Source: Chthoniobacteraceae bacterium | GTDB taxonomy: Bacteria > Verrucomicrobiota > Verrucomicrobiia > Chthoniobacterales > Chthoniobacteraceae | Assembly: GCA_947449735.1 (NCBI GenBank) | Contig: CANFTB010000019.1 | Coordinates: 1 to 64,000 of the forward strand | Direction: 5' to 3' | DNA length: 64,000 nucleotides | Part shown: one piece after another, positions 23,389-47,216 of the stretch | Layout of the letters: each line of letters starts with the position of its first letter | Numbering within the stretch: the stretch's first letter is position 1 | Program-made: the position numbers and the translations under genes | Notes under the pieces: model-generated | Databases searched by the model: none | What the model was told of the DNA's origin: nothing | The model's input: the letters and a program-made list of their open reading frames with translations, nothing else

Positions 23389-23393
23389 CCGTG

Positions 23394-30578: not shown

Positions 30579-30872
30579 TTAATTTTTTCCGGAACCGGGA
30601 TTGTCCTCGCGGATCTTGATCAGCAATACGGGAGGCTGCGGGGGCTTTTTCGCTTCCGTGCGGGACATCGGTGCCGCCGGACAGCAACAACTGCCCGTCG
30701 TCTCGGCGGACGAGGCCACGCGGGGCGGCGCAGGCGGCTTCTTCTGTATCATCTCCCGCGGAGGAGCCACGAACCCAGCTTCGCCGGTCCCATCACCAGC
30801 GATCAAAGTGCCCGTACAGAGCGTCGTGGCAAGCGCCGCGGACATCACTTTTTTGGAGGTGGCGGGATTCAT
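30579..30872 (-). CDS. Small secreted Pro/Cys-rich protein
   Basis: 97 residues. A signal-like N-terminus (VMSAALATTLCTGTLIAGDG near 9-28) is followed by proline-rich sequence with a CCC cluster (GSCCCPAAPM) and a basic tail. It has no known domain. It is the first gene of the leftward operon that ends with FHA-MoxR, 22 bases before the 748-residue gene, and its start is 131 bases from the start of the divergent DUF4159 operon. The first Cys of the signal region could be a lipidation site, but the lipobox is not convincing. Confidence 0.6.
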   Translation of the reverse strand: MNPATSKKVMSAALATTLCTGTLIAGDGTGEAGFVAPPREMIQKKPPAPPRVASSAETTGSCCCPAAPMSRTEAKKPPQPPVLLIKIREDNPGSGKN

Positions 30873-31003
30873 TTCTTGTAAGTCAGTGCTGCAAGCAATC
30901 TAGCAGCGAAACATGAACAGTTAAAGACTTGCCACCCCCCCATCTGGCGTCAATGCTTTTCAAGCAATCATTGAAGCTAATCTTCACTCATCACCCGGCC
31001 TTC
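30873..31003. promoter_or_regulatory. Divergent control region between the MoxR and DUF4159 operons
   Basis: This 131-base stretch separates the start of the leftward operon (30872) from the start of the rightward operon (31004), so promoters for both should lie here. No -35/-10 pair or palindrome stands out by eye. Confidence 0.4.
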
Positions 31004-32413
31004 ATGCTTACAACCCTCCCGGAAAGCCGCCTTCCTTCCGGTCTCCGAAAAAGTCTTTCGCTGGCCCGGATTCTACCGCCGGCCTTCCTCAGCCTCTTGA
31101 GTGCACTCGCCCTCCTTTCTTCAGCGGCAAACAGCTTTGCGCAGACTGGAAAGGAACTCTACGGGGCGGACATCTACTGGAATGCCACTCCAAACGACGT
31201 AAACAATCTCCTGAAGAAAATGAAGTCGCAGACGGATGCGAACTTCCAGATGGAGATCCGCACACTCGGTCAAATCAGCGAAAATCCCGAACAGAACCCC
31301 GTCCTGTTCCGCTCCGGCCATTACCGCTTTTCTTACGCCCCCCAGGAGAGGGAGAAGCTCCGCAAGTACCTCCTGAACGGGGGCATGATCATTTTCAACA
31401 CGGGCCTCGGCTCGAAACCTTTCTACGACTCGGTCGTCGAAGAACTGAAAAAGATCTTTCCGGAGCAACCCCTTCAAAAGCTCTCCCCCGACCACCCCAT
31501 CTTCCATTCCCACTACGACCTCGACAGGGTCGAATACACCAAGGCGGTGAACGCCTCGGGCTTCCGCGGCAATGAACCGTGGTTCGACGGCATCGAGGTG
31601 AATTGCCGGGTGGTCGCCCTCGTCTCGCGCTGGTGCATGGCCGCAGGCTGGCAGGGCGAGGTGCAGGAAGACTGGCAGGCCTACAAACCAGACTCATCCT
31701 TCAAACTGGGCGTCAACATCCTCTCCTACGCCTCCGCAATGCGGGCCTGGGCGAAGAACGCCGCGCAGGCCATGCGCTTTGTCGATAAACTCAAGTCCTA
31801 TTCGGACTCTGTCTCGGTCGCACAGGTCACTTACGACGGCATCTGGAAGACGCGCCATGCCGGCCTCCCTGTGATGCTGCAGACCTTCAACGCGCGCACC
31901 GGCATTCCAGTAAAGTTCCACCTAAAGGAACTGCGTCTGAGCGACCCTGCGATTTTCAACTCCCCGGTCATCTACATGACCGGCCATGAATCCTTCGAAT
32001 TGAAGCAGGAGGAAAAGGCCGCCCTCAAAAAATATCTGGAAAACGGAGGGTTTCTCTTCGCTGAAGCCTGCTGCGGGCGCAAGGGCTTCGACCAGTCCTT
32101 CCGAGACCTGATCCGGTCCGTGCTTCCCGACAAGCCACTGGAGCGCATCCCCCAAAACGCCCAGCTTTTCAAGCAACCCAACAACATCACTGCTGTCGGA
32201 GTGACCCCGACACTCATGCAGGAGAGCGGCCAGGCGCGCGCGGAACCCACGCTGTTCGGTGTGATGTTCAACGGAAACCTCGGACTCGTCTACAGTCCCT
32301 TCGGCCTTTCAGGCGGATGGGAAATGAGCCAGTCCCCCTACGCGCGAGGCATCAACGACGTGAGCGCAACACAGATCGGACAGAATGTGATGCTGTATTC
32401 CATCACCCATTGA
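31004..32413 (+). CDS. Secreted protein with two tandem DUF4159 domains
   Basis: 469 residues from the ATG at 31004, chosen because the signal peptide (hydrophobic run FLSLLSALALLSSAANSFA near 28-46) is then N-terminal; other ATGs lie 17 and 25 codons upstream. Two DUF4159 domains are visible, each with the glutamine-amidotransferase-like fold pattern. The first (about 50-215) contains REKLRKYLLNGGMIIFNTG, and the second (about 260-440) contains EEKAALKKYLENGGFLFAEA. Both keep a LxNGGxxxF core but no obvious catalytic triad. DUF4159 proteins are usual members of MoxR/DUF58/VWA clusters in this phylum. It is the first gene of the rightward operon. Confidence 0.85.
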   Translation: MLTTLPESRLPSGLRKSLSLARILPPAFLSLLSALALLSSAANSFAQTGKELYGADIYWNATPNDVNNLLKKMKSQTDANFQMEIRTLGQISENPEQNPVLFRSGHYRFSYAPQEREKLRKYLLNGGMIIFNTGLGSKPFYDSVVEELKKIFPEQPLQKLSPDHPIFHSHYDLDRVEYTKAVNASGFRGNEPWFDGIEVNCRVVALVSRWCMAAGWQGEVQEDWQAYKPDSSFKLGVNILSYASAMRAWAKNAAQAMRFVDKLKSYSDSVSVAQVTYDGIWKTRHAGLPVMLQTFNARTGIPVKFHLKELRLSDPAIFNSPVIYMTGHESFELKQEEKAALKKYLENGGFLFAEACCGRKGFDQSFRDLIRSVLPDKPLERIPQNAQLFKQPNNITAVGVTPTLMQESGQARAEPTLFGVMFNGNLGLVYSPFGLSGGWEMSQSPYARGINDVSATQIGQNVMLYSITH

Positions 32414-32452: not shown

Positions 32453-33115
32453 ATGAAACGCACTCCGGCCATTGTCTGCCTTCTTCTCCTGACGCTCACC
32501 GGCCTGCTTCACGCGGCAACCTCAAACGGCAACGAGTTCGCACTCGCGCTTTCCGAGGCAAAGTCTCCCGCCGCACGTTCAACCCTCGTTGAAGGAGCAG
32601 CAGGACGCCCGCATTTTTTCAGGTATCTGCAAATCATGGAAATGCGCCAGGTGAGCGAAGGCGGCCGGGAGAGCTTCCTGATCACAGCGTTTGAACCCTC
32701 GTCCTACTTGGACGTCGTGTTTACCGTGTCCATGCCCGTTTCTCTCGGCGTCCTCAAAGCGGAGCCCGTCTCAAAAGTCGGCGATGCGATCGCAGTCACA
32801 GGAAAGGTAATCGGCGTCGAACCGGGCAAAAACTCCGTCCAGCTTGCCGAGCCGATCGTACGACACAAGGACCGCTTGAGTCCCAAGATCGGCAAGGAGT
32901 TGCTCAGCGAAGTCAACCCCGGTGCAACTTTCTACAGCTACACCGAAGGACCACGGCCGATCAAACTCGAGGCTCGAGACCGGGATCTTCTGCAGCACCG
33001 CGACAGAATCATGGCCTCGGGCGGACCCAAAGCCTGGGGGGAGTTTTTAGAGACCGAGATCGCCAAGCGAAAGCAACAGCGCGCATCGTCAGCAAAGGAG
33101 GCGGGCCAGCCTTGA
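32453..33115 (+). CDS. Hypothetical secreted protein, 220 residues
   Basis: Unrecognised. A signal peptide (TPAIVCLLLLTLTGLLHAAT, about 3-22) is clear. The mature part is beta-rich in the middle (LDVVFTVSMPVSLGVLKAEP, then GKVIGVEPGKNSVQLAEPIV) and has a charged helical C-terminus (EFLETEIAKRKQQRASSAKE). It lies 39 bases after the DUF4159 gene, and its stop overlaps the next start by TTGA. Probably a periplasmic or membrane-associated part of the same complex. No enzyme motif. Confidence 0.7.
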   Translation: MKRTPAIVCLLLLTLTGLLHAATSNGNEFALALSEAKSPAARSTLVEGAAGRPHFFRYLQIMEMRQVSEGGRESFLITAFEPSSYLDVVFTVSMPVSLGVLKAEPVSKVGDAIAVTGKVIGVEPGKNSVQLAEPIVRHKDRLSPKIGKELLSEVNPGATFYSYTEGPRPIKLEARDRDLLQHRDRIMASGGPKAWGEFLETEIAKRKQQRASSAKEAGQP

Positions 33116-33939
33116 ACCGGCAACCCCCTCTCGCAATAAGTCACCTGACGGCATCCGCCCTGTGCGCGGCTGGATTCCTGTGTTTCGGGATCGCTGCCAC
33201 CTCCCACGCCGCGGACGAGGACGGTCTAGTCAGCTTGTGGAAGCAACACATGTCGGCACCCGGTGATCACGACGTGCTGATCAAAGCTTGCCAGGCCTTT
33301 GCAGCAGCTCACTCCGGCGATCCCTTGCTGCCTGTCGTGCGGGGTTTTGAAGCGTGGCACACTCTGCAAGCGGGGAGCCCCCAGGAGGCTTTCGCACTGT
33401 GGGAGTCTGATCTGAAGCTTCCCGCCTCGCCCCTTAATGAATGCGCGAAGCGGCTTGCCTGCGGATGGATGTCCCGCGCTGACCGGGAAAAAGTCGTCGC
33501 CTCCCTCCAGGCCTATTACCGAAAAGAGGTCGCCTATCCAAAAAGTCTGGAGCAGATCGCAGCCCATCCGCGTCTTAAAAACGAACCTAAGCCTCCCGAA
33601 AAAGACCGCTTTGGAAACCCATGGAGCTATACCCTCACCGGCTTCGAAAAAACAAAAGGATTTCCAGACCAGAAGTACTCCCTCAAAAGCTCCGTTCTAG
33701 GCGATCTTTCGGATTTGCAATCCGCTGCATCCCTGGCCTACGCCTCTAAAATCACGGCGGTTCCGCAGCGTGTCATCACCATGCCGAACAACACTTCGGC
33801 GGTGAGTTTCAACCTGGGAAAAAGCGTCTCAATGAGCATGGTCGGCCCGGGACAGGGCGACCTGCACCTCGCGTTTATCGGCGCCAAATTCATCGTCGTC
33901 TGCGACCACACCCACTGGAAAATCCTACCTCGCCCCTGA
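33112..33939 (+). CDS. Hypothetical secreted protein with GspG-like segment
   Basis: 275 residues. It starts with TTG, overlapping the previous stop by TTGA (33112-33115), which supports this start. A signal segment (SALCAAGFLCFGIAATSHAA near 14-33) is followed by a helical repeat-like part. Near 145-175 is a stretch (YPKSLEQIAAHPRLKNEPKP, then EKDRFGNPWSYTL) that closely recalls the conserved C-terminal part of type II secretion pseudopilins (GspG), though the usual N-terminal pilin helix is absent. Its stop overlaps the DUF58 start by one base (TGATG). The role is unknown. Confidence 0.7.
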   Translation: MNRQPPLAISHLTASALCAAGFLCFGIAATSHAADEDGLVSLWKQHMSAPGDHDVLIKACQAFAAAHSGDPLLPVVRGFEAWHTLQAGSPQEAFALWESDLKLPASPLNECAKRLACGWMSRADREKVVASLQAYYRKEVAYPKSLEQIAAHPRLKNEPKPPEKDRFGNPWSYTLTGFEKTKGFPDQKYSLKSSVLGDLSDLQSAASLAYASKITAVPQRVITMPNNTSAVSFNLGKSVSMSMVGPGQGDLHLAFIGAKFIVVCDHTHWKILPRP

Positions 33940-34889
33940 TGGCCGGAGTCTCCCAACCGAAATCGAAACCAAATGCAGGCGAGCCCCCCAAAGAGGGCAT
34001 AGCGGCATTTCTGAACCCCGCCGAGATGCACAAACTCGGCAGGCTCCTGCTCCTCTCGCGCAACAAAGTGGAGGGCACTCTGGCGGGTGCGCACCGCAGC
34101 CCACTGCGGGGCCCGAGCTCGGAGTTCGCCGACCACAAGAGCTACGGCATCGGCGACGAAACGAAGCACATCGACTGGCGCGTCTTTGCGCGCACCGACA
34201 AATACTTCATCAAGCGCTACGAAGACGAAACCAACCTCCGCGTCTATCTCGTCCTCGATCGCAGCGCATCGATGAACTACGCCTCCGAGGGTGGAGCCAC
34301 CAAGTACCACTTCGCATGCCGGCTGGCGGCTGCCATTGGATATGTGATTGTAAAGGCAAGGGACTCGATCGGCCTCTACCTGCACGGACAAAAGGTCGAC
34401 GTGCGCATGGATGCGGGCAACTCCTTCCAGCATCTCCACAACCTTCTCAAGCACGTCCAGAACCACCCGCCCGAGGGGGGGGGCGACCTGGCTGCAGTCC
34501 TGCATGAAATTGCATCCTCAGTCCGCCGCGGAGCACTCGTTGTCGTGCTTTCTGACCTGCTTGGAGACGAGGAAGAGATCATCAAGGGGCTCGCCCACCT
34601 CCGGAAACAAAAGCACGATGTCATCCTCTTCCAGACGCTCGACCCGGCCGAACTGGACCTCAATTTGAGCAAGCCTTGCGAACTCCACGACTTGGAAACA
34701 GGCGAGGATCTGCCTGTCAACCCGCGTGTTCTTGCGGAGGAATACCACAGGGTGTTCGGCGAGTTTCTGCAGCACTACAAGAAAGCCTGCGCGGGCATGA
34801 ATATCGACTACAGAGTGGTGCCGACAAACCAGGAGCTTGAATCCTTCGTGCGCGTCTACCTCTCAGAGCGCAGGCGCCTTTCACGCTGA
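33939..34889 (+). CDS. DUF58 family protein (VWA-like)
   Basis: 316 residues, cytosolic, of usual length for DUF58. The signature SPLRGPSSEFADHKSYGIGD, then HIDWRVFARTDKYFIKRYED (about 45-95), is intact. A VWA-type MIDAS motif follows (LVLDRSASM, DxSxS near 105-110), and later strands carry LVVVLSDLLGD. DUF58 proteins are the standard partners of MoxR ATPases. The FHA-MoxR at 26186 is the obvious candidate, although it lies in the divergent operon. It overlaps the previous gene by one base, and the next starts 9 bases after its stop. Confidence 0.9.
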   Translation: MAGVSQPKSKPNAGEPPKEGIAAFLNPAEMHKLGRLLLLSRNKVEGTLAGAHRSPLRGPSSEFADHKSYGIGDETKHIDWRVFARTDKYFIKRYEDETNLRVYLVLDRSASMNYASEGGATKYHFACRLAAAIGYVIVKARDSIGLYLHGQKVDVRMDAGNSFQHLHNLLKHVQNHPPEGGGDLAAVLHEIASSVRRGALVVVLSDLLGDEEEIIKGLAHLRKQKHDVILFQTLDPAELDLNLSKPCELHDLETGEDLPVNPRVLAEEYHRVFGEFLQHYKKACAGMNIDYRVVPTNQELESFVRVYLSERRRLSR

Positions 34890-34898
34890 CATCCGGTC

Positions 34899-37061
34899 AT
34901 GTTCCTGGCTCCACTTTTTCTCATGGCAGCGGGTGTCGGCGCCACCGTCCCGTTTTTTCTGCACCTGATGCAGAACCGGAGGCGGACGCGCCTTCCGTTT
35001 CCTACCGTTCGCTTTCTCAAAAAAGCCGAGAAAAACACCTCCCGCCGCATCCGGTTGGAGAACTTCCTGCTGTGGTTGCTGCGAACCATGATCATGGCGC
35101 TGCTCGGGGCCGCGTTCGCCATGCCGATGGTCCGCAGCGGCGGACTGGGCTGGCTCGGCGACGCCCCGCGCGACGTTGCCATCGTGCTAGACGCCTCCTA
35201 CAGCATGGGCTACCGCGTTGACAGGGGAACCGTCTGGGACAAGGGCATCGAGACTGCCATCGCCATCATCGAAGGACTGCGCGACCCGGACCGGTTCTGC
35301 ATTTATATCGCGCGTGAACAACCCGAGGCAATCGTCGCCGAACCCATCGCAAACAAACATGAGGGCATCCTGCGCCTGCGCGCCCTTCAACTCGGACAGT
35401 CCGAATCAAGAATCATCCCCGCTGCAAACGCGGCAATGAAGGCCCTTCTCAAAGCGGACTCCCAGCGCGAGCGCGAGATTCACATCATCACCGACAACCA
35501 AGCCCTGCCCTGGCAACCCATCGCGGCAGGCGCGGTCGAGGCGCAGATTGCCCCGAAGACGCCGGTCTTTGTAACGCTCCTTGGAGTTTCCGCACCCGAG
35601 AATACAGCGATCGCCTCCCTCGATCTCCAGCCCCCCGTGGCGCGCAGGGGTTCCGAAATGAAGGCCCAGGTCAAACTGCGGCGCACAGGACCGCCGGCAG
35701 ACACCACCCTGTCTCTCTTCATCGATGACCGCGAGATCAGCCGCAAACACGTTCCCGCCGCGGATGCGGACTCAACAGAACCGGCGTTCACCCTCCCCGT
35801 TCTGGAGGTCGGGGTGCATGCAGCCAAGATCCAGACCCCCGAGGACAATCTTACAGCCGACAACGCCTTCTATTTTCTAATCAGAATTCAAGAACCCATG
35901 CCCGCGCTTGTCGTGGGCTCCGATAGTGAAACCCTGTTTTTGAAGACCGCACTGCGCACAGGCCTCGGAAGCGCAAGCGCGGTTGAATCGACCAGCCCCG
36001 AGAAGCTCACGGAGAAACCTTTGTCCCGCTATTCAAGTGTCATCCTGTGCAACGCGCTGCCCCTTTTCGGTCAGGCCATTGGAGTCATTGAGGCCTACGT
36101 TAAGGCCGGAGGCGTTCTGGTGATTTTTCCAGGCATGGCGGCGAAACCAGACGCCTACACACCCTGGACGGCCCTTCCCGCCACCCCGCGTTCGGTGGAC
36201 GACCTGCCTCTGGCACAACGCAACCGCACGCTCAGCTGGGACCAGCCCCAACATCCCCTTGTCCGGTCGCTGCGCGAAGGCATCGGCATCCCAACCGTCG
36301 CCATCCGGCGCAAACTTGCCTTCGACAACGTCCACGAGGGAGCACAGCGCATCGTTTCCATGGGCGCCAACCAGCCGTTCCTCCTCGACCGGCAATTCGG
36401 AGCGGGCCATGTCCTTTTGTTTTCCGTATCGGCGGACCGGACCTGGAGCGACTTCCCGCTCTCCCCCTTCTTTCTTCCGCTGTTAATTCAATGCGCCGAC
36501 CTGGGCACCGGAGCCGGCCCGCGCACTCCCTTTGAATGGGCGACCGACTGGCTCCCGCTCAGCGACCGCTTCCCCGAATGGAAGACGCCCCCAAGCCTCA
36601 GCGGTCCCGATGGACAGCCTCTCTCCGTGCGGGCCTCGGTGATTGATGGTCGCACCGTGCTGAATGCGGAGAACCTGAAAATGCCGGGCTTCTACTCGGT
36701 CACCTCCTCCGCCGAACCGGAGGGTAAGCCGGTCATCGCAGTGAACCTGTTGAGGGAGGAATCCAACCTCACGCCTGTGATTGAAGCCGAGATTGCCAAA
36801 CACCTTGGGGTGGAAGACACGGCCGTCGCGCACGATCTCGAAAGTCTGCGCAGTCTCATCACCGAGCACCGGATCGGGCGCACCTTCGGCGAACACCTGC
36901 TCTGGATCGCCCTCCTCCTCACAGCCGTCGAGTTTGTCTACGCAAACGTGCTGGGCCGCTCCACCGGAGCCTCAAGAGGAGGCGCGGGATCCCCCGGGGC
37001 TCCCTCACAAGGCATTGGAACAGGCTCCGCAAAAACCGCATCCGCCGGAGAGGGTGCATGA
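34899..37061 (+). CDS. BatA-type VWA membrane protein
   Basis: 720 residues. The N-terminus is a BatA domain with two membrane helices (MFLAPLFLMAAGVGATVPFF, then FLLWLLRTMIMALLGAAFAM near 51-70) and the usual RRTRLPFPTVRFL between them. A VWA domain follows with MIDAS DASYS near 96-100. Residues about 220-600 form Ig-like and amidotransferase-like beta domains, and a C-terminal membrane helix lies near 668-690 with a Gly/Ala/Ser tail. It belongs to the aerotolerance-type (Bat) family and probably sits in the inner membrane with its VWA part in the periplasm. Its likely partner is DUF58/MoxR. Confidence 0.85.
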   Translation: MFLAPLFLMAAGVGATVPFFLHLMQNRRRTRLPFPTVRFLKKAEKNTSRRIRLENFLLWLLRTMIMALLGAAFAMPMVRSGGLGWLGDAPRDVAIVLDASYSMGYRVDRGTVWDKGIETAIAIIEGLRDPDRFCIYIAREQPEAIVAEPIANKHEGILRLRALQLGQSESRIIPAANAAMKALLKADSQREREIHIITDNQALPWQPIAAGAVEAQIAPKTPVFVTLLGVSAPENTAIASLDLQPPVARRGSEMKAQVKLRRTGPPADTTLSLFIDDREISRKHVPAADADSTEPAFTLPVLEVGVHAAKIQTPEDNLTADNAFYFLIRIQEPMPALVVGSDSETLFLKTALRTGLGSASAVESTSPEKLTEKPLSRYSSVILCNALPLFGQAIGVIEAYVKAGGVLVIFPGMAAKPDAYTPWTALPATPRSVDDLPLAQRNRTLSWDQPQHPLVRSLREGIGIPTVAIRRKLAFDNVHEGAQRIVSMGANQPFLLDRQFGAGHVLLFSVSADRTWSDFPLSPFFLPLLIQCADLGTGAGPRTPFEWATDWLPLSDRFPEWKTPPSLSGPDGQPLSVRASVIDGRTVLNAENLKMPGFYSVTSSAEPEGKPVIAVNLLREESNLTPVIEAEIAKHLGVEDTAVAHDLESLRSLITEHRIGRTFGEHLLWIALLLTAVEFVYANVLGRSTGASRGGAGSPGAPSQGIGTGSAKTASAGEGA

Positions 37062-37073
37062 CCTGATGCAAGG

Positions 37074-39278
37074 ATGATCGTTTTCGAGCACAGCTTCCCT
37101 GTCTGGTCTATCGCCATGGTGATCGCGGCGGCCGTCGTATGCGGCATTTTTACTGCCTGGCGATTCCTGCAGCGGCGCGCATTCAGTGCGGTTCTTGTGT
37201 GCCTGTATGTTCTCGTCCTTGCCGGAATGACGTGGTGCTTGTTGCTGCCCGGGATTCGCAACACCTACACGCAGGTCCGGAAGCCCCGGTTTATCGTCGC
37301 CTTGGACACCTCGCAGAGCATGACGCTGTCCCCAGCACCGAATATTCCGAACCGGTGGACGACAGCGCAGGAGGCTCTCATTCGACCATGGCTCAAGCAC
37401 ATCACGAGCGAGTGCGACATTGAGTTTTTCCACTTCAACTCCGAACTATCGGAGAACACCCCGATCAGCGATGCCCGCTCGCTCAAACCCGACGGAGCCG
37501 CCACTCGTCTGCGACACTCTCTCAAAAAAATCGCAGACCATTCCGCCGGCCTCAACGTCGCAGGCATGCTGCTTTTAAGCGATGGAACCGACACGGGAGA
37601 GGCGCTGGACGACTGGGCCGGCGTGCCCCAACCCTTTCCCGTCTACACCCTCAGGCTCGAACCGCCCGGGGGCTGGAAGCAGGACCCGGATCTGAGAGTC
37701 GACACCGTCACCACTTCACGCCGCGTCACCCTCGGATGGAAGTCTGAGTTGAAGACAAAAGTCTCTGGACAGGGAACACGGGGATCGCCTGTGACCGTGC
37801 AACTGTTCGAAAACGGTGCACTCAAAGGTGAAATCCCGACCCAAATTCCAGATGAAGGAGGCGAACGCGAGGTGACCTTCGACTTGGAACATCCGAAGAT
37901 GGGGATCTTCAACTACCGCGTGTTTGTTCCTCCGCTGGCAGGTGAAATCAACAAGGAGGACAACGAACAGATGGTGAACGTCGAGGTCGTGGACGCTCGC
38001 AACCGCCTGCTCTACCTCGAAGGCGTCCCGAGGTGGGAATACAAATATCTCCGCAGAGCTCTTCTCTCCGAACGCCAGATCTCCCCGATTATTTTTTTCA
38101 CCGGTTCCGACGGTTCGCCTCAGGGCGGAACACCCGTGGGAAATGTCACGGCGGACATGACGACTCAGCAGTTGGCGTACTTCAAGATCATCATGCTGGG
38201 CAACATCGATGCCAAGGAACTGGGTGCCGCCCGCGCAAAGAACCTCGTCAAGTTCGTGGAGGAGGGCGGAAGCCTCATCCTTCTGGGCGGTGCGAAGGGT
38301 TGGACAGCGGGTGGTCTGGAGGAAACTGATCTTGGCAAAATGCTGCCGGTTCGAGGCGCTGACGTGAAGACTCTCGAGGGAGAGAAGCCCTTCCCCGTAA
38401 AACTGAGCGAGGCAGCCCGTGGGCACCCGGCATTCGCTGGCGATGCGGCGCTCTGGCAGAACATTCCCCCTGTCCTCTCACTTTTCACGGGCTTCGCCCT
38501 CTCCCCAGGAGCTGAGACGCTTGTTACGGCAGACACTCCAAACGGAACGCAACCCGTTGTCGCCACCCAACGCTTTGGCCAGGGAAAGGTCACAGCCATC
38601 CTAACCGATTCGCTTTGGCGCTGGCAGTTGGGACCCGAGGCCGGACGAGCGCGGCCCTACGAGAGGTTTTGGACCCAGATGATTTCCTGGCTGCTCCCCC
38701 GCCAGGAGGCAATCGATGGAATGCGCCTCGAATTCGTCGCAGATCGGGATCAGGTCTTTCTCGGTGAATCCATCGAACTCAGCGCCCGGTTCGGCACTGA
38801 CGACTCGCTAAAACCTGACAGCATCGAGGCAAAGATCACCTTACCCGACAAACGCGAGGTGCCCTACCGGATGTCTCCGCAACTTGTAACACTGCCCTCC
38901 GGCAAGAGTTTCCCGGGATTCAGTGCGACATTTTCCGCGACGCAACCCGGGCTCTATAACGTCAGCGGCTCCGCAAAGATGAAGGGGCAGACCTACGCCA
39001 GCGAGCCTTTCAGCTTTTTCGTAAAGCCGCACTCCCCGGAAACCGTTCCGCGCCCCGCAAAGGTGGAGGTGCTCCAGGCACTCTCCACGTCGAGCGGTGG
39101 ACGCTTCTTCGAGTCTCTCGATTCAATGAACGAGGGCCTCTCCAAACTCCAGTTCCACACAAGCGAGGAAAAACTCTCCGACTACAAGACGCTGTGGCGG
39201 GAGTGGCCGGCGGTCATCCTGCTCATGAGCGTGCTTGCAATCTCATGGGGCTTAAGGAAAAGCCAAAATTTACCGTGA
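37074..39278 (+). CDS. VWA/glutamine-amidotransferase-like membrane protein
   Basis: 734 residues. Two N-terminal membrane helices (about 10-30 and 38-60) precede a VWA-like domain with MIDAS DTSQS near 81-85 (RFIVALDTSQSM). A long middle part includes a class I amidotransferase-like domain (about 300-500; RLLYLEGVPRWEYKYLRRAL, FVEEGGSLILLGG), of the type often found next to DUF4159. A C-terminal membrane helix lies near 708-727 (AVILLMSVLAISWGL). It starts 12 bases after the BatA-like gene. Predicted to be an inner-membrane protein of the same MoxR/VWA complex. Confidence 0.85.
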   Translation: MIVFEHSFPVWSIAMVIAAAVVCGIFTAWRFLQRRAFSAVLVCLYVLVLAGMTWCLLLPGIRNTYTQVRKPRFIVALDTSQSMTLSPAPNIPNRWTTAQEALIRPWLKHITSECDIEFFHFNSELSENTPISDARSLKPDGAATRLRHSLKKIADHSAGLNVAGMLLLSDGTDTGEALDDWAGVPQPFPVYTLRLEPPGGWKQDPDLRVDTVTTSRRVTLGWKSELKTKVSGQGTRGSPVTVQLFENGALKGEIPTQIPDEGGEREVTFDLEHPKMGIFNYRVFVPPLAGEINKEDNEQMVNVEVVDARNRLLYLEGVPRWEYKYLRRALLSERQISPIIFFTGSDGSPQGGTPVGNVTADMTTQQLAYFKIIMLGNIDAKELGAARAKNLVKFVEEGGSLILLGGAKGWTAGGLEETDLGKMLPVRGADVKTLEGEKPFPVKLSEAARGHPAFAGDAALWQNIPPVLSLFTGFALSPGAETLVTADTPNGTQPVVATQRFGQGKVTAILTDSLWRWQLGPEAGRARPYERFWTQMISWLLPRQEAIDGMRLEFVADRDQVFLGESIELSARFGTDDSLKPDSIEAKITLPDKREVPYRMSPQLVTLPSGKSFPGFSATFSATQPGLYNVSGSAKMKGQTYASEPFSFFVKPHSPETVPRPAKVEVLQALSTSSGGRFFESLDSMNEGLSKLQFHTSEEKLSDYKTLWREWPAVILLMSVLAISWGLRKSQNLP

Positions 39279-39317: not shown

Positions 39318-39929
39318 ATGCGCCCTCCCCTGCTCCTCGCAACGATCTCTGCGCTCCTCGTTCACGCCGCTCTTTCCGACGCGCAGGCACAGTCCATCAT
39401 TGAGAACGGCAGCTTTGACGACCCAGCCTCTCCCCTCAAGGGATGGACCATCGACTACGCCTTTTCCGGCAATTCGCACTACATGGACAACAAATCCAAA
39501 GTTTCCATCGCCAGCGAGGCCGCCCGAAAGAATGTCGTGCAGTTTGCTTCCGCCGGTGATGCGGGAGTCAAAATGGAGAGCAAGAGCTTCCCCCTTGAAC
39601 CCGGATTCAAATACACCTGCTCGCTGGACATCAAGGGCGCCGGATACCGGGTCTACTTCGCCGGCTACCAGTTCGCGCCCGGAGTGCGCCCCCACGAGAA
39701 CCCCGACCTCGGCGAGCTTCGCATGGTTTACCAGAGCAAGGCGGCGACCGGTTCGAGCGCCGAGTGGAAGCAGGAGCGCTTTGAACTTCCTGGAGTCACT
39801 CTTTCCCAGCAAGCCATCGACCACCTGAAAAAGGTGCGCTACCTCACTGTTTACATCTGGATGGCCAAGCCCGGCTTTGTCGACAACGTGTCCGTTACAA
39901 AAACGGCGGACCCTTCAATGCGCTTTTAG
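39318..39929 (+). CDS. Small secreted protein with carbohydrate-binding-like jelly roll
   Basis: 203 residues with a signal peptide (PPLLLATISALLVHAALSDA, about 3-22, cleavage probably after AQA). The mature part begins NGSFDDPASPLKGWTIDYAF and continues through strands ending in GFVDNVSVTK, the pattern of CBM-like jelly-roll domains. The exact family is not known to me. It lies 39 bases after the VWA gene and 12 bases before the 1193-residue gene, within the same operon, so it may bind a cell-surface glycan near the complex. Confidence 0.75.
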   Translation: MRPPLLLATISALLVHAALSDAQAQSIIENGSFDDPASPLKGWTIDYAFSGNSHYMDNKSKVSIASEAARKNVVQFASAGDAGVKMESKSFPLEPGFKYTCSLDIKGAGYRVYFAGYQFAPGVRPHENPDLGELRMVYQSKAATGSSAEWKQERFELPGVTLSQQAIDHLKKVRYLTVYIWMAKPGFVDNVSVTKTADPSMRF

Positions 39930-39941
39930 CCCCTCATCGGC

Positions 39942-42900
39942 ATGTCCACCCAGTACGCCGCAAAACTCGAGCAGATCGGCCGCAACCTCAACCAGTGGAG
40001 GGCGGAACTGAAGCTCTCGCTTGGTCTGGCGGCAATCGGAGGCTGGATCTGGGCCCTCGGCCTGCTGGACGTTTGGCTGCGCATGGAGCGGCCCGCGCGT
40101 CTGGCCACTTGGTGCATCCTGCTCGTAATCGTGGGGGGGACGGTCTGGCTGGTGCGCGCCGCCCTAAGATCAAGATTCACCCTTGAAAGCGTTGCTGCGA
40201 CGCTCGAAAAGGCGTTCCCGCAACTGGACAACCGCCTCATCAATTACCTTCAACTTTCCAGAAATCCAGAGGCGGATCCCTTCAAAGAGGCCTATGTGAA
40301 GAACGGCGTCCCCGCCTTTCTGAAGCTTGATTTACAGCAGATGCGCGACAGGCCGCGACACCGGCGAAACTGGTTCGCCGCCGCAACAGCCGCAGTCCTT
40401 CTTCTCATCCCGCTTTTTATTTTTGGACAGGCCTGGTCCGTGGCTCTCTGGAGAACGGTGAATCCGTTTACAAACATTGCACCGCCGAGTCTGACCAAAA
40501 TCCTCAACGTCACTCCCGGCGCCACCGCAGTCATACAAGGCGAACCGCTCCTGCTGGCCTGCTCAGTGAAAGGGTTCGAGGGACATGAGGTGAGAGTCGA
40601 AATCGAACCCAGCGATACGGTCAAAAGCGTTTACTCCCTCGGATCCATCCGCGGAGGAGAAGTTCAGGACTTCAGCTACAAAACTCCAAAGGTCACGACA
40701 GGCCTCCGCTACAGGTTCAAAGCCGGAGACGCCCAAGACTCGCCGTGGTTCAGCGTCAGCACCCGCCCCCTGCCGGCTTTCACGAACGTTTCCGTCGCAA
40801 TCATCCCGCCCGACTACATGCGCCTTCCCAAACGCTCCCTTGATGCCAGGGAAGGCCGTCTTGCAATACCGACAGGCTCGAGCGTCCGGCTCACAGCAAC
40901 CGCCAACATGCCGCTCAAGGATGTGCAAACTGCGCTCGCCTCTTCAGAACCGCACCAGTTTTCGATAGTCGACAACAACCCGAACGTTTGGACGGCTAGT
41001 GTTGTCGTCTCAACGGGCACCGCCTTCACCCTGCGTGGCAGGGACGCCGACGGCATTGCCTTCGAAGAATCCATTCCTTTCACGCTCGACCCCGACAAGT
41101 CTGCGGGAATCGAGATCGTCTCCCCGGGCAGCCGGGCCACCCTGCCCAGCGGCGAGCGGCCCCAGATCGATTTCCGGGTGGCCGATGATTTCGGCATCAC
41201 CGAAGTTTTTGTGGAGGAGGTGAAACCGGACGCCACGCTCGAGGACAAAGGCACGGAACTCAAGCGCTGGAAGGTCGGGGCCATGCGCGAATTCCGTCAG
41301 GTGTGGCGCAGCGAAAATCCTGCTCCACAGGGCGCGGACGTGGCTTTCCGCATCGTGGCCATCGACAACAAACCGGACAACCCGAACCAATCAGTCTCGG
41401 CCAATATCGTTTTCAACGCCCCGCCAGCAGTGGAAGCTGCCAAGCAGCGCGAGGCGCTCGACAGAGAGGCACGCAACAACATCGAGTCCGTCATCGCTCT
41501 GCAAAAGCAGAACCTCGCCGATACAACCCGGTACAAGGGCGCTGTCAAAGCCACCGCGGAATCAAAATGGAAAAGTACCGCCGACGTGCAGTCACGCATC
41601 CGAACCACGGTTCACGACCTGCTCTCCAATCCACTCAAGCCGCTCGGCAGCCTCACCACTGCAATGCAGAAGCTTTACGTGAACGAGATGGTGCTTGCCG
41701 TGGACTCACTGCAGTCGATTCCAGCGGCTGACGACAAAAAAAAGGAGGTGCTCGCAAGCGAGGCGGTCGCTCTCCAAACCACTATTTTAAAACACCTCGT
41801 ATCCGCTGTTTCCGCAGTGGACGAGTCAAAGCTCGAACGCAGCGTCACCGGACTCAGCGCTCTTTTGGAGGCCCTTCTCCGCAACCAGGGCAACGCTCTA
41901 AAGCAGACTGCCGCACTGGTGGAAGCCAAGGCAAAGGTTCCGAAGCAACTCGTGGACGCACAGGACCAAATCGGAACCGAAATGACGGCCTTCCTCGCCG
42001 CGTGCAAGCAGGAGGCGGCGCAGTCGGCTCAGACCGACGCGGCCCTTTCCGGAACCATCGAACGCATGACGGCCAAAGCGAACGAGCTCAAAATTCGCGG
42101 CGACATGGTCATAGCGGCGGAGCGCCTGGATCAAAACCAGTCGGCCGACGCTCTCCCAATCCAAGAGCGCATTTTAACCGGACTCAAAGGTCTGCAAGCG
42201 ATGCTCGACCAGATCAAGATGCAGGAGGAGGCCGAAAAACGCGAGCTTCTGATGGACGCCGTCAAGCAGGCCAAGGAGAAACTCAACAAGATCGAGGCCC
42301 TGAACGAAAAAATGAACGAGGCCATGGAGCAGGTCAAAGGACAGAAAAACAAGGACGACCAAAAATCCGACGAGATGACGGAGGACTTTGCAGCGATGAA
42401 GGAGAACATCAAACAAGCGCTCCTCGAAGTTCCAAACGACCTCCACATTTTCACCGAACTGAACGTAGCGAACGATCTGGTGGAGGATGTCTTCTCAGTA
42501 TTTCAGGAAATCGAGCAAAAGGAGGACTCGGAAAACGACGGCGCGGACAAAGTGAAGGAGAGCGGCGCCGCGAAGGATGAGAAAATGCTGGCGGCAATGG
42601 GCGAGGCCCAAAAGCGTCTCGATGCCATGGAAATGTGGCTCGCAGAGAAGCCCGATGAGAAGAAAATAACCGCCGAGGCCTTCGACAAGGCGGAGATGCC
42701 GGAGTCGGGAGTCGCCCTTGGTGAACTTGCCGCCGCAGCACAGGACCTCCTGGGAGATCTTCTCAAAGAGGATCAAAAAATGGCGGAGAAAGCCGACGAC
42801 AGTGCCACCAATCAGGCAATGTCCGACACCCCGGCGGGTGCCGAGGTCGCCGAGGGGGAGATCGCCTCGTTCGCCGCGCAGGGAAAATCCGGCAACCAGG

Positions 42901-43523
42901 CCCCCGATCACAAAGAGCAGGATGGCCGCTCGAATGTCGGCCGCCAGGGCATGGCCGTCGGAGAAACCGCGGCGGGATCCGGCACGATCGGAGAAGGCGA
43001 CAAAAACATCGAGGCACGCCGCACTGAGGAACCGATGCAAAGCGGAAAGGTGGACCTCGCAGGCGAAGCAGATACCAAGGCGACTGGAGGAGGAAAGCTC
43101 GGAACAGGAAAGGCCGACGCCATGGGAATGGGAGGAGGCGCCGAACGCGTCGACTCCATGGAGGCCGGCTCGGATGCGGGCATGGCGGCGCTCATGGCGC
43201 GCCAAGCGGATGCGCTTTACGCCAAGGCCTCGATGAAGAACGTGCGCGTGGATTCGCTCAAAACAGCCTCCCACGAACTGCGGCAGGCAGCGGACGCCAT
43301 AGCGAAGGGAAACATTGAGCAGATGCGCGAACATCGCAAACTGGCCATCTCCTCCTTGAGCCGTGCTACTGCCAATCTTTCAGCAGCTCCTTCCGGCGCG
43401 ATGGAAGCCAAGGGCACGACCGGCGCCCTCGACAGCGTGATTGAAAGCGGGCCGGACCATGCACCCCCCAAATACCGGAGCAAAGTGGCCGAATACTACA
43501 AAGCCCTCAACGGCGCCTTATGA
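39942..43523 (+). CDS. Large membrane protein with coiled coil (DUF4175-like)
   Basis: 1193 residues. Three membrane helices occur near the N-terminus (about 25-43, 54-76 and 147-168), followed by Ig-like beta domains (to about 490). A very long helical/coiled-coil part with many Gln, Lys and Glu runs to about 970, for example AEKRELLMDAVKQAKEKLNK. A Gly-rich, low-complexity stretch (about 985-1090) and a helical end finish the protein. The shape resembles the DUF4175-type proteins that accompany MoxR/VWA clusters. It should sit in the inner membrane with a large periplasmic coiled coil. It is the last gene of the operon; a weak terminator-like hairpin follows its stop. Confidence 0.75.
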   Translation: MSTQYAAKLEQIGRNLNQWRAELKLSLGLAAIGGWIWALGLLDVWLRMERPARLATWCILLVIVGGTVWLVRAALRSRFTLESVAATLEKAFPQLDNRLINYLQLSRNPEADPFKEAYVKNGVPAFLKLDLQQMRDRPRHRRNWFAAATAAVLLLIPLFIFGQAWSVALWRTVNPFTNIAPPSLTKILNVTPGATAVIQGEPLLLACSVKGFEGHEVRVEIEPSDTVKSVYSLGSIRGGEVQDFSYKTPKVTTGLRYRFKAGDAQDSPWFSVSTRPLPAFTNVSVAIIPPDYMRLPKRSLDAREGRLAIPTGSSVRLTATANMPLKDVQTALASSEPHQFSIVDNNPNVWTASVVVSTGTAFTLRGRDADGIAFEESIPFTLDPDKSAGIEIVSPGSRATLPSGERPQIDFRVADDFGITEVFVEEVKPDATLEDKGTELKRWKVGAMREFRQVWRSENPAPQGADVAFRIVAIDNKPDNPNQSVSANIVFNAPPAVEAAKQREALDREARNNIESVIALQKQNLADTTRYKGAVKATAESKWKSTADVQSRIRTTVHDLLSNPLKPLGSLTTAMQKLYVNEMVLAVDSLQSIPAADDKKKEVLASEAVALQTTILKHLVSAVSAVDESKLERSVTGLSALLEALLRNQGNALKQTAALVEAKAKVPKQLVDAQDQIGTEMTAFLAACKQEAAQSAQTDAALSGTIERMTAKANELKIRGDMVIAAERLDQNQSADALPIQERILTGLKGLQAMLDQIKMQEEAEKRELLMDAVKQAKEKLNKIEALNEKMNEAMEQVKGQKNKDDQKSDEMTEDFAAMKENIKQALLEVPNDLHIFTELNVANDLVEDVFSVFQEIEQKEDSENDGADKVKESGAAKDEKMLAAMGEAQKRLDAMEMWLAEKPDEKKITAEAFDKAEMPESGVALGELAAAAQDLLGDLLKEDQKMAEKADDSATNQAMSDTPAGAEVAEGEIASFAAQGKSGNQAPDHKEQDGRSNVGRQGMAVGETAAGSGTIGEGDKNIEARRTEEPMQSGKVDLAGEADTKATGGGKLGTGKADAMGMGGGAERVDSMEAGSDAGMAALMARQADALYAKASMKNVRVDSLKTASHELRQAADAIAKGNIEQMREHRKLAISSLSRATANLSAAPSGAMEAKGTTGALDSVIESGPDHAPPKYRSKVAEYYKALNGAL

Positions 43524-43626: not shown

Positions 43627-45954
43627 GTGCCCGCAAAGCTACCCTCCCCTTACCAACCGAATTGCCTGCGCACCCCGACACGAATGGAGATTCCCAACTA
43701 CCAGCCCTTCTACCTTCAATCCCTTGAGGGGCTGCGAGCTGAGATCAAACGACTCGGCCTGACCGCCCCAGCTGATGAGGACCTGTCCCCCCTTGGAGAG
43801 CCGCTTAGCGTCGACGGCAGGATCATCCCGAACCGGTTTTGCGCACAACCCGTCGCAGGCAACGACGCGGAATCAAACGGAGCTCCTGGCTCTCTGACCC
43901 TCAGGCGCTACACCGCTTACTCGAAAGGGGCGTTTGGTCTAATCTGGGTCGAGCGCACTTCTGCCGTTGACGGTCAGGAGCCGAGAGGGCTGCGCCTTTC
44001 AAGGGATACGGTTACTCGCTTCGCAAAAATGCTCGAGGACATGCGAGCTTCCGCAACCGTAAAGCCGCTGGTGGTGATTCAACTCACTGCGACATCCTCC
44101 GAGGCTATGATCGCCTCCGCAAAATTTGCAGAGGACGCCGGCTTTGATGGCGTCGACATCCAGGGCGACAGGAACACGCTGCCCGGCACTCTGGCGCGCC
44201 TGCGTAACGCTGCACCGGGCCTTCTTTTGACCACCCGACTCTGCGCCTATGAAGGTGTTCGAGGCGGCTTCGGCGTCTCATTGAATGACTTCCGCAAACA
44301 CGACCTAAGCGGTCCCATTACCTTCGCCCGCAGCCTCCTCGAAAGCGGGCTGCAGATGCTGAATGTCACCTCGGCAGGCCCTCGCCTCGTGGGGACGACG
44401 CGAGGAAGTCAACCCTTCGCAGATTTCGAGCGCGGAGACGAACACCCGCTGACCACCATGGCGAGGCAGCTGATGCTGGTGCAGACCCTTCGAGAGACCT
44501 TCCCAACCGTACCGATGGTGGGCACCGGTTTCAGCTGGCTGCGGGAGTTTGCGCCCAATATCGCCTCAGCTGCCATCCGGTCAGGGGTTATGCACTTAGC
44601 CGGCTTGGGACGAGCCGCCCTGGCGTGTCCGGATTTACCATCGCAGGTATTGAGCCGCGGCATGGTGGAAGGCGGCTCCACCTGCATGGTGTGCTTTGCC
44701 TGCTCTCATCTCGCGGAGTCTGGCAGAGAAGTCGGCTGCGTCATTCGGGATCCTGAAGTGTACGGACACGCGTTCCGCGACGCACGTCGCCTGGACGCTG
44801 ACCGGCTCCTGTCGGGTGCCGCCCGGTGTCATCTTTGCGAGGCGGCGCCGTGCAGCGCCAAGTCCCCAACGCGCACAGACATTCCATCCTTCATCAAGGC
44901 CTTCCGCCAAGGACGGACGCAGGATGCCTACGAAGTATTGCGGGCCGGCAATGCTCTGCCCGAAATGGTTTCGCAGACAGGGCCCTCCTGGTGCGAAGCC
45001 GAAGGGGCATGCATCGAGAAAACCCTCAGCGGAGTTGCGGTTCCTATCAGAGACCTCCAATACGCAGCCGCCTGGCAGGCGAGGAACAACGGCATTTCCG
45101 GAATCACCATGCCCGAGGTCAGCAGCCACAAGACTGTGGCAGTCGTCGGCGGCGGGTCTGCGGGCATCTCTGCGGCCGCACGCCTTCTCGAGTTGGGGCA
45201 TCGCGTCCATATTTACGAGGCGTCCAATTGTCTCGGGGGGGTGCCGGCGCGCCTTCTTGCCAGGCATCGCGCCATGGCGGATCCCAGCGGCGAAATCGCG
45301 GCTTTGTTGCGCCCTGCCCTTTCGGCCGGACGCCTTGAGTGCTTTTTCAAAAGGACTCTGGGCAAGGACGTCTTTCTCAAAGATCTAGCTCTCGAATATG
45401 ACGCCGTCCTTGTGAACGTTGGATTGTGGCGCGAGCGCTCACTTGGCAAGGCGTACGGCGTGATTGGCGCGCTGGATCTTCTCGAGCATGGTCTGCCATC
45501 CACTCCGCGGCGTGTCGCTGTGCTGGCTGGGGGAGACAGTGCCATGGACGCGTGCTCTGCCCTTCATGCCCTCGGCACCGATGAGATTTATGTGGTCTTT
45601 GAGGGGTCCAGAGCAGAAATGCACTGGCACATGTCGGACAGCTGGTTCGCGAGACCGGGGGTTCATGCCATGATGAGTTGGAAGCCGCTTGGCTACGCAT
45701 GCGACGTTGAGGGAAGAGTGAACGGTCTCCGCCTGGGGCATTCAGCATTGGGCATTGAGTCGACCCTGCCTGTTGATCTGGTGGTTGAGGCGATGGGTTT
45801 GACCCTCTGCGAAACCGTTCGCTCCGAGCTCGAGACCTGTTCGGGCGTCGTGCATACTGCGGGTGCCATGGTGAATGGAGGAGCCTCAGTCGGCCACTGC
45901 GTTGCAGAAGGTCATGCGGCGGCAGAAAACATCCACAGGCAGCTTTTAAAATGA
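43627..45954 (+). CDS. OYE-like/GltD-like fused flavoprotein oxidoreductase
   Basis: 775 residues from a GTG at 43627 (an ATG at 43684 would give 756); neither start has a Shine-Dalgarno site. The first 350 or so residues form an old-yellow-enzyme barrel of the dienoyl-CoA-reductase type, ending in a cluster motif CMVCFAC plus a further Cys 13 residues on. Next is a GltD/dihydropyrimidine-dehydrogenase-like Fe-S domain (about 398-490, CHLCEAAPC, WCEAEGAC). A GxGxxG-type FAD/NAD(P) domain follows (VAVVGGGSAGISAAARLLEL near 500). The barrel and the GltD-like part are usually separate proteins. It is coupled by ATGA to the YcaO gene. Probable role: flavin/Fe-S reductase for a YcaO product. Confidence 0.8.
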   Translation: MPAKLPSPYQPNCLRTPTRMEIPNYQPFYLQSLEGLRAEIKRLGLTAPADEDLSPLGEPLSVDGRIIPNRFCAQPVAGNDAESNGAPGSLTLRRYTAYSKGAFGLIWVERTSAVDGQEPRGLRLSRDTVTRFAKMLEDMRASATVKPLVVIQLTATSSEAMIASAKFAEDAGFDGVDIQGDRNTLPGTLARLRNAAPGLLLTTRLCAYEGVRGGFGVSLNDFRKHDLSGPITFARSLLESGLQMLNVTSAGPRLVGTTRGSQPFADFERGDEHPLTTMARQLMLVQTLRETFPTVPMVGTGFSWLREFAPNIASAAIRSGVMHLAGLGRAALACPDLPSQVLSRGMVEGGSTCMVCFACSHLAESGREVGCVIRDPEVYGHAFRDARRLDADRLLSGAARCHLCEAAPCSAKSPTRTDIPSFIKAFRQGRTQDAYEVLRAGNALPEMVSQTGPSWCEAEGACIEKTLSGVAVPIRDLQYAAAWQARNNGISGITMPEVSSHKTVAVVGGGSAGISAAARLLELGHRVHIYEASNCLGGVPARLLARHRAMADPSGEIAALLRPALSAGRLECFFKRTLGKDVFLKDLALEYDAVLVNVGLWRERSLGKAYGVIGALDLLEHGLPSTPRRVAVLAGGDSAMDACSALHALGTDEIYVVFEGSRAEMHWHMSDSWFARPGVHAMMSWKPLGYACDVEGRVNGLRLGHSALGIESTLPVDLVVEAMGLTLCETVRSELETCSGVVHTAGAMVNGGASVGHCVAEGHAAAENIHRQLLK

Positions 45955-47216
45955 AACTTCAGTCCCGCAAAAAAGTCGCCCACGACCGGTGCGTGGATCC
46001 GGCGCAGACCATTGCCAAGCTCGAGAAAATCTTTGGCGCTCGATACGACTACTGGCTGCACGAAGAAGTGGTCACAGACGAACTGCACTGGTCGGCCATG
46101 TTCATCGACGGACTGGACTTCCGGTCCATGGGCAAGGGCGTTACCCAGCAGGGCAGCCTGGCCGGCGCCCTGGCCGAGGGAGCGGAGTCCCTGCTTGCCC
46201 GAGAGACGGAGGCTCTTCCCGGCTATCTGGGGGCGCGTGAAAAGGACATCACAAACGCCCTTTCGATCAGTTCGCTGCTCGAGCACGTAACCTCAGCAAC
46301 ACCGCCTGTGCTCGAGCGGATCCGCGCAACCGATGAAGCCTACCACTGGGTGGATGGCTACTCACTGATGCACAAAACGATCCGAAAAGTGCCAATCGAA
46401 TATGTTCGTCTCATCAATGGAACCAACGGAAGGGCGACGGGCAACAATCTTGAAGAGGCAATCTTGCATGCAGCCCTCGAGATCTTCGAGCGGCGCGCCC
46501 AAATCGCAGTGCTTCGGAACCGGATGGTGATGCCCACCATCGACCCATCGAACATCACAAACCCGTTCGTCCAACGCCAAATCGCGTTTTTACGGAGGCA
46601 CGGCATCGAAGTCACTTTAAAGGACCTCAGCTTTGGAGGGGTCCTTCCATGTATCGGCGCTTACTTCGTGGATCAAAACATCCCCGAGGACTACCAGTTC
46701 CGCCACTTCTTTAAAGTCGGCGCATCTTTCGACACGAACGAAGCCCTGCAACGCATGTTTACGGAATATGCGCAGGGACGCCGCAGTCACGAATTCCTGA
46801 TCCCAAATTCCACACAGTCTGAGACTCTGCTCAAAACACTCTTAGACCACGATTTCCGGCAACTGGCGGCCCAACCCGACGACTGCGACAACTTCATGTC
46901 GGCCTATATGTTCGGCTTCGTCCCCTACCGGAACGCAGACTTTCTCCAGGACGGTGAGGCAGTCCCACTCACATCGCACTCCTCTCACGAGGACTGTCTT
47001 GGAGACATCGCGGGGGTGTGTTCGATTTGCGAAACCCTCGGCAAGGACTGCATCGTGGTGGATCTATCCGACCCTGAACATGATTTCCCCGTGGTTCAGG
47101 TGATTGTTCCCGGCTACTCGGATATCCTCCCGTTTCATCCCGCCGACAGCGATGCGCTATTCACCCGCTGGACGCGCACGCAGTCCCTGGAATCGTATCC
47201 GCGAGCTGCTTTATAA
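45951..47216 (+). CDS. YcaO-domain protein (ATP-dependent amide activation)
   Basis: 421 residues. YcaO hallmarks are present: GKGVTQQGSLAGALAEGAES (about 63-82) and TGNNLEEAILHAALEIFERR (about 162-181), which carry the ATP/Mg-binding glutamates, and a C-terminal FPVVQVIVPGYSD near 381. YcaO enzymes activate peptide-backbone amides with ATP to make azolines, thioamides or amidines. The C-terminus (SLESYPRAAL) lacks the PxPxP ending of azoline-forming cyclodehydratases. No TfuA gene and no precursor peptide are seen nearby. The only partner is the upstream flavoprotein, coupled by ATGA, so the substrate is unknown. It converges on pgeF with 31 bases between. Confidence 0.85.
   Translation: MKLQSRKKVAHDRCVDPAQTIAKLEKIFGARYDYWLHEEVVTDELHWSAMFIDGLDFRSMGKGVTQQGSLAGALAEGAESLLARETEALPGYLGAREKDITNALSISSLLEHVTSATPPVLERIRATDEAYHWVDGYSLMHKTIRKVPIEYVRLINGTNGRATGNNLEEAILHAALEIFERRAQIAVLRNRMVMPTIDPSNITNPFVQRQIAFLRRHGIEVTLKDLSFGGVLPCIGAYFVDQNIPEDYQFRHFFKVGASFDTNEALQRMFTEYAQGRRSHEFLIPNSTQSETLLKTLLDHDFRQLAAQPDDCDNFMSAYMFGFVPYRNADFLQDGEAVPLTSHSSHEDCLGDIAGVCSICETLGKDCIVVDLSDPEHDFPVVQVIVPGYSDILPFHPADSDALFTRWTRTQSLESYPRAAL

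Follow-up and report, generated by a model that had tools for sequence, protein, structure and literature searches.

A 64,000-nucleotide stretch of contig CANFTB010000019.1 from a Chthoniobacteraceae bacterium (assembly GCA_947449735.1; this whole stretch is called the window below) carries an adjacent pair of genes, one encoding a flavoprotein in which an old yellow enzyme (OYE) barrel is fused to a GltD-like module (OYE-GltD), the other a YcaO enzyme. The pair appears to be part of an undescribed pathway of Verrucomicrobiota (freshwater bacteria) for the chemical modification of a small protein that is rich in cysteine and associated with a cell-envelope operon. The initial annotation had proposed an undescribed route of ATP activation followed by a redox step; that idea is supported, but the annotation missed the candidate precursor and did not link the pair to the larger operon, and a SagB-type dehydrogenase is matched in 13/19 of the genomes with this YcaO, though not in the window's own. 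The gene set, its linkage and co-occurrence, a contrast in cysteine content and selection on the peptide gene were established by computation. The full proposal, namely that a 97-residue (aa) peptide is the substrate, that its modification yields azolines or azoles and that the product is used in the envelope, is given a probability of about two in three. The identification of the peptide as the substrate, considered by itself, is likely to be correct; the predicted azoline or azole chemistry is moderately supported, and the role assigned to OYE-GltD is a guess.

The OYE-GltD and YcaO gene pair

The flavoprotein gene (43684..45954, + strand, 756 aa) encodes an OYE barrel with a FadH-type 4Fe-4S motif, followed by a GltD-like Fe-S/FAD/NAD(P) module. 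Both halves of the fusion first described are present, but the length of 775 aa, counted from a GTG at 43627, did not hold: this codon lies upstream of the part common to nine orthologues, and the alignable part starts at the ATG at 43684, for which an equivalent codon was found in eight other orthologues (GTG in one). The GltD half of the window protein matched Pfam Fer4_20 (54.6 bits) and Pyr_redox_2 (33.6 bits). The window barrel alone is too diverged for the Pfam Oxidored_FMN model and gave nothing at an E value of 0.01, while 7 of the 9 orthologues matched that model (best 1.5e-13). When a profile of 19 OYE-GltD orthologues was compared to structures, OYE-type (5e-31) and GltD-type (6e-71 to 8e-64) matches were obtained, and at the family level both halves are certain. 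The AlphaFold2 model of the flavoprotein was less sure (mean predicted local distance difference test score (pLDDT) 83, predicted template modelling score 0.65) and no further use was made of it. The ycaO gene (45951..47216, + strand, 421 aa) overlaps the flavoprotein stop codon by ATGA at 45951-45954, as originally reported, and both open reading frames (ORFs) exist. The encoded protein scored 176 bits against PF02624 (cut-off 25.7), and its AlphaFold2 model (mean pLDDT 91) had E. coli YcaO (4q86) as its best structural match; the assignment of this protein as a YcaO is certain.

Distribution was determined in samples of 97 relatives and 387 genomes of the phylum, nearly all of which appear to be draft metagenome assemblies; the phylum genomes searched for YcaO and for the peptide are taken to be the same 387 from equal counts and handles. 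YcaO was found in 9 of the 97 relatives, and the same 9 hold OYE-GltD at at least 42% identity, adjacent in all 9; twelve further relatives were matched in the GltD part only (E 6e-30 to 3e-23). In the phylum sample, YcaO was matched at E<1e-170 in 12/387 genomes, and four more gave weak matches only (5e-12 to 3e-15) that belong to other YcaOs. Ten of the 12, from 8 families, lie outside the class, so the pair is conserved past close relatives, which was the check named at the outset. The resulting set comprised 20 YcaO loci (19 YcaO genomes plus contig L046). OYE-GltD was matched in 19/19 YcaO genomes, on another contig in G349, as the GltD half only in G395 and in two pieces in G208, and it adjoins ycaO in 18/20 loci. 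The exceptions are G349 and G307; in the latter (L067, 10510-12238) two opposite-strand ORFs stand between the two genes, and the pair is thus not contiguous in every genome. Chance adjacency is ruled out by the 9/9 relatives and 18/20 loci overall. A contig scan for YcaO loci, using patterns too narrow for distant members, returned 9 loci, all filed under verrucomicrobial names (two as Akkermansia muciniphila); eight of them were already among the genomes used, and L046 was the one addition. Genome G363 also holds a second OYE-GltD-like match (C24, 4237-6048), an open frame of 892 aa located outside the operon. The possibility of a known defence system was examined with PADLOC on nine window proteins and rejected, as only two weak matches were returned, both to OYE-GltD.

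The candidate precursor peptide

It had been stated that no precursor peptide was visible; this was wrong, as a candidate is encoded in the same window at 30579..30872 (- strand, 97 aa). It is proline-rich, with an SCCCP core and an N-terminus that resembles a signal peptide (judged by eye and hydropathy only). The gene was found from loci outside the class, where in 7 of 10 a short gene encoding a CCCC motif lies directly downstream of ycaO; the window homologue lies ~15 kb from ycaO on the opposite strand. When an alignment of eight peptides was used as the search query, strong matches (E<=1.6e-40; next best 2.4e-21) were obtained in 12/387 phylum genomes, the same 12 that have the YcaO. Among the relatives, the peptide was found in 6 of the 9 YcaO genomes (seven genes, two of them in tandem in G007). 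The three YcaO relatives without a peptide match (G004, G006 and G038) are also without a match to the adjacent 748-aa gene, and the segment carrying the peptide is therefore probably missing from these drafts. In eight comparisons of the peptide gene, dN (nonsynonymous rate) was 0.04-0.17 and dS (synonymous rate) 0.39-3.1, some values being saturated; this purifying selection marks a real protein gene. Peptide-like matches in G231, G077 and G039 were considered as further members and were read by eye as chance.

The cores of 17 peptides from 16 genomes contained CCC (one), CCCC (13), CCCCC (one) or CCSCC (two), the last with a serine among the cysteines; the tandem genes of G007 (L097) have one copy with CCCC and the other with CCSCC. 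Genome G428, in which neither this YcaO nor OYE-GltD was matched, retains a decayed peptide relic (L155, 8600-8800) with an in-frame stop ahead of the core.

Weaker matches of the peptide query were N-termini of DUF4159 proteins. From 18 of 60 second-tier phylum genomes and 11 matches in relatives (2 by chance), 27 distinct fused segments were collected, with DUF4159 shown on 26/27 of the proteins. None of the 27 holds two cysteines within the final 45 matched residues; single cysteines occur in the core region in G217 and further on in three others. The detached peptides have 3-5 clustered cysteines in 17/17. This YcaO is lacking in 26/27 of the fused-segment genomes, the exception being G004, where the fused copy (L163, contig C15) sits in a second, paralogous MoxR/DUF4159 operon, which includes a 1193-aa paralogue (about 27-29% identity) and exists in this genome in addition to the YcaO version. 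In the four YcaO genomes read for this feature (the window's, G032, G003 and G349), the DUF4159 protein of the operon was without the peptide-like segment (4/4). In a tree of 31 DUF4159 domains, the five rows from YcaO-bearing operons were separated from the others by one branch (95/89). The detached gene, the cysteine cluster and the enzymes thus probably have a single, early common origin and have been retained since.

Enzyme sites, the surrounding operon and competing explanations

The YcaO residues that correspond in the alignment to E. coli E75, E78, N187, E191, E199, E202, R203, R286 and E290, which we take to be the ATP site, are invariant in 20/20 orthologues, the alignment at E75 and E78 resting on a stretch scored weakly by HMMER. 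As first reported, the C-terminal PxPxP is lacking; it was found in 0/20 orthologues (last 40 residues). Membership of a characterised NCBIfam subfamily was considered and rejected, the window protein being below every such cut-off reported and above that for the general YcaO domain; this placing is by family scores rather than by a tree with characterised members. The scores were 75.7 bits against the McrA-thioamidation model (cut-off 365), 65.8 bits against the SagD-type TIGR03604 (cut-off 219.25) and 65 bits against NF040716 (E. coli-type, S12 accessory; cut-off 700).

These results bear on an alternative in which the YcaO thioamidates the peptide or an envelope protein, or alters its backbone in some other way, the cysteines serving as metal or redox ligands. 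It is favoured by the missing PxPxP end, by MJ1094 as the best sequence match of the window YcaO in the PDB and by the McrA-thioamidation score exceeding that of the SagD model, although both scores are so far below their cut-offs that neither decides. Against it stand the absence of TfuA among the scanned window proteins, the serine in two of the cores and the SagB-family protein in 13/19 YcaO genomes; we regard it as unlikely. SagB lies directly beside OYE-GltD in 12/20 loci, with one gene between in G434 and on another contig in G349. All 13 SagB proteins scanned (from 12 genomes and contig L046; G349 was left out) exceeded the TIGR03605 cut-off.

A MoxR/BatA/DUF58/DUF4159 operon houses the modification module. 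On the + strand, upstream of the pair, are genes for the DUF4159 protein without the N-terminal peptide-like segment (30929..32413; the ORF starts with TTG and the true start is probably later), conserved proteins of 220 aa (32453..33115) and 275 aa (33112..33939), a DUF58 protein (33939..34889), a BatA/VWA protein (34899..37061) and a GATase1-like protein (37074..39278), a conserved 203-aa protein (39318..39929) and a 1193-aa protein of unknown function (39942..43523) with orthologues in the YcaO relatives. Divergent from this run, on the - strand, the peptide gene is followed by genes for conserved proteins of 748 aa (28310..30556) and 238 aa (27587..28303) and for an FHA-MoxR AAA+ ATPase (26186..27556, 456 aa). 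The N-termini of the 203-aa and 238-aa proteins look exported by eye. In other YcaO loci the pair is surrounded by subsets of these genes; the order in G363 is 1193-aa, OYE-GltD, YcaO, peptide, 748-aa, 238-aa and MoxR. Elsewhere in the window are genes for a protein in which WD40 repeats follow a planctomycete-type cytochrome c (PSCyt1) domain (23343-24785), a small protein of unknown function of the Minf_1886 family (TIGR04138, Plancto_Ver_chp; 49493-49945) and nicotinate-nucleotide-dimethylbenzimidazole phosphoribosyltransferase (cobT, 50846-51952), the last possibly heading a series of cobalamin genes.

In a further alternative, the enzymes might modify another member of the operon, such as the 1193-aa protein, the cysteine-rich peptide being a separate metal-binding part that travels with the operon. 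Orthologues of the 1193-aa protein (at least 47% identity) were found in exactly the 9 YcaO genomes of the 97 relatives (G004 has a fragment of it where a contig ends), and a paralogue (27-29% identity) in 10 genomes, G004 having both forms. The ~15 kb and the change of strand between the window peptide gene and ycaO point the same way. Opposed to this are the peptide gene directly after ycaO in 7 of the 10 loci outside the class and a related operon in G217, in which a 1193-aa homologue (35% identity) adjoins the 748-aa gene with no modification genes between them; there the segment is fused to DUF4159 with one cysteine in it, no match to this YcaO was found genome-wide, and no OYE or SagB was found within the 20 kb read. 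This explanation is improbable, slightly more so than thioamide formation.

The cysteines of the 4Fe-4S motif are kept in 18/18 OYE barrels. The first GltD cluster (C382, C385, C390 and C443, a grouping presumed from dihydropyrimidine dehydrogenase) is complete in 17/19 orthologues; the second is complete in 5/19 and lost in the window protein. The OYE histidine pair is replaced by Gln and Arg in the window protein and, of 18 barrels compared by eye, none has His as the first residue and 7 have it as the second. In G395 (L068, 11099-12343) the barrel is missing and a GltD-like half is left with its Fe-S cysteines partly lost. OYE-GltD is thus constant but drifting, and the reaction of the flavoprotein is the weakest part of the account. 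That the pair has a small molecule and no peptide as its substrate is very unlikely: OYE-GltD does resemble ene-reductases that depend on NAD(P)H, as well as GltD-type subunits found in several oxidoreductases, but the pair is linked to the peptide and the envelope operon, and a first residue that is never His makes a standard ene-reductase doubtful.

Several observations weigh against modification of the peptide to azolines or azoles for use in the envelope. Among the relatives the co-occurrence of the 1193-aa protein with YcaO is equally perfect, so that co-occurrence alone names no substrate. No SagB match was found in 6/19 YcaO genomes (G000, G004, G006, G038, G164 and G363), the window's genome included; in G038 (L037, 1-370) the end of the 220-aa gene abuts the last codons of SagB, the result of a deletion or an assembly chimera. 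In the Lys-Tyr pair of SagB, presumably catalytic, Tyr is kept in 13/13 and Lys in 6/13, with Arg or His in its place in 7/13, and the SagB N-termini are hydrophobic and exported-looking, an unexpected feature if SagB works with a cytoplasmic YcaO. The OYE barrel has degenerated, and G395 lacks it. Most azoline-forming YcaOs need a partner of the E1, ThiF or RiPP recognition element (RRE) type (RiPP: ribosomally synthesized and post-translationally modified peptide). As the initial annotation had stated, no TfuA, ThiF or E1 domain was found among the scanned window proteins, a scan that took in part of the window's genes; no Pfam or NCBIfam match to an RRE was found in the same proteins either, though weak RREs come to light only by comparison of profiles with profiles. 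Conservation extends along a large part of the peptide, which sets it apart from most RiPP cores. Fused DUF4159 paralogues also occur in YcaO genomes (G004 among the 27), and weak second peptide matches were seen in G341 and G349 by profile search only. Because the DUF4159 domains of the YcaO-bearing operons form one clade, the cysteine contrast counts as one old event and not as 17 independent ones.

Proposed pathway and relation to known systems

In the proposed pathway, the substrate would be the 97-aa peptide, homologous to the DUF4159 N-terminal segment, encoded by a separate gene and bearing a contiguous cysteine cluster. From the chemistry of its family, the YcaO would use ATP to activate backbone amides and cyclise cysteines (and serine) to azolines, at -18 Da each. 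Where present, the SagB-type flavin mononucleotide (FMN) dehydrogenase may then oxidize azolines to azoles, at -20 Da each in total; in the window's genome, with no SagB match, the rings may remain azolines, or OYE-GltD may take over. Least certain of all, OYE-GltD would move electrons among NAD(P)H, FAD, Fe-S and FMN, setting the redox state. The product would be exported by way of the signal-peptide-like N-terminus and act in an envelope machine, standing in for the segment present in cis in other DUF4159 proteins; this envelope role is suggested by the linkage and by the homology of the peptide to the DUF4159 segment.

The closest comparison is to linear azol(in)e-containing peptides and thiazole/oxazole-modified microcins (LAP/TOMM), of which a predicted Microgenomates cluster with a precursor, a YcaO and a SagB dehydrogenase is an example (PMC7298704). 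Shared with these are a YcaO with an intact ATP site, a Cys/Ser core and, in 13/19 genomes, a SagB-family protein. The present system differs in that no E1/ThiF-type partner was found and the OYE-GltD fusion is the constant partner, in that the precursor is homologous to a DUF4159 segment, widely conserved and located inside a MoxR operon, and in the PxPxP C-terminus of the LAP/TOMM cyclodehydratase, seen in 0/20 YcaOs here. Like the YcaO-TfuA systems for thioamides and McrA thioglycine (methanogenesis marker 1), it has a standalone YcaO without PxPxP; unlike them it has SagB in many members and no TfuA that was found, and its YcaO reaches 75.7 bits of the 365 required. Bufferins and oxazolins are RiPPs with Sec signal peptides modified by multinuclear non-heme iron-dependent oxidative enzymes (MNIO), and PMC12452194 terms such signal peptides highly unusual for bacterial RiPPs; bufferins show that cysteine proteins bearing signal peptides can be RiPP precursors. 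The candidate precursor is likewise a small cysteine protein with a signal-peptide-like N-terminus, and heterocycles are reported there and proposed here. Those systems use MNIO enzymes and DUF2063 partners, whereas neither was found among the scanned window proteins and a YcaO is present here. The FHA-MoxR, DUF58, BatA, GATase-like and DUF4159 genes resemble those of MoxR/BatA/DUF58 envelope operons of the AAA+ and von Willebrand factor A (vWA) type. In the related operons of G158 and G217 the segment is fused to DUF4159 with no YcaO, OYE-GltD or SagB beside it, unlike here. In the open-licence literature, nothing was found for YcaO with old yellow enzyme or for YcaO with MoxR, and a search for DUF4159 and DUF4175 by name returned DUF4175 only. 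Searches of the same literature (mostly titles and the starts of abstracts) with YcaO or azole terms combined with Verrucomicrobia, nitroreductase or signal peptide, and with MoxR/BatA terms, gave no account of this system among the matches listed.

A more specific model is put forward tentatively and with some doubt: rather than a secreted natural product, the RiPP may be a fixed and conserved component of an AAA+ (MoxR-vWA) machine in the envelope, a split-off DUF4159 segment from which YcaO, SagB and OYE-GltD make a poly-azol(in)e that is exported and serves as a metal or redox element. On this model the system would be for YcaO what the bufferins are for MNIO, and would bring a flavoprotein not previously seen as a partner and a novel biological purpose for heterocycles in the backbone. 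The present analysis supplies a candidate substrate, a minimal gene set and a natural comparison between segments with and without the cysteine cluster and the enzymes. If the proposed pathway is true, backbone heterocycles would serve a built-in envelope component and not an antibiotic, and it would provide a handle on the unknown job of the MoxR/BatA/DUF4159 operons.

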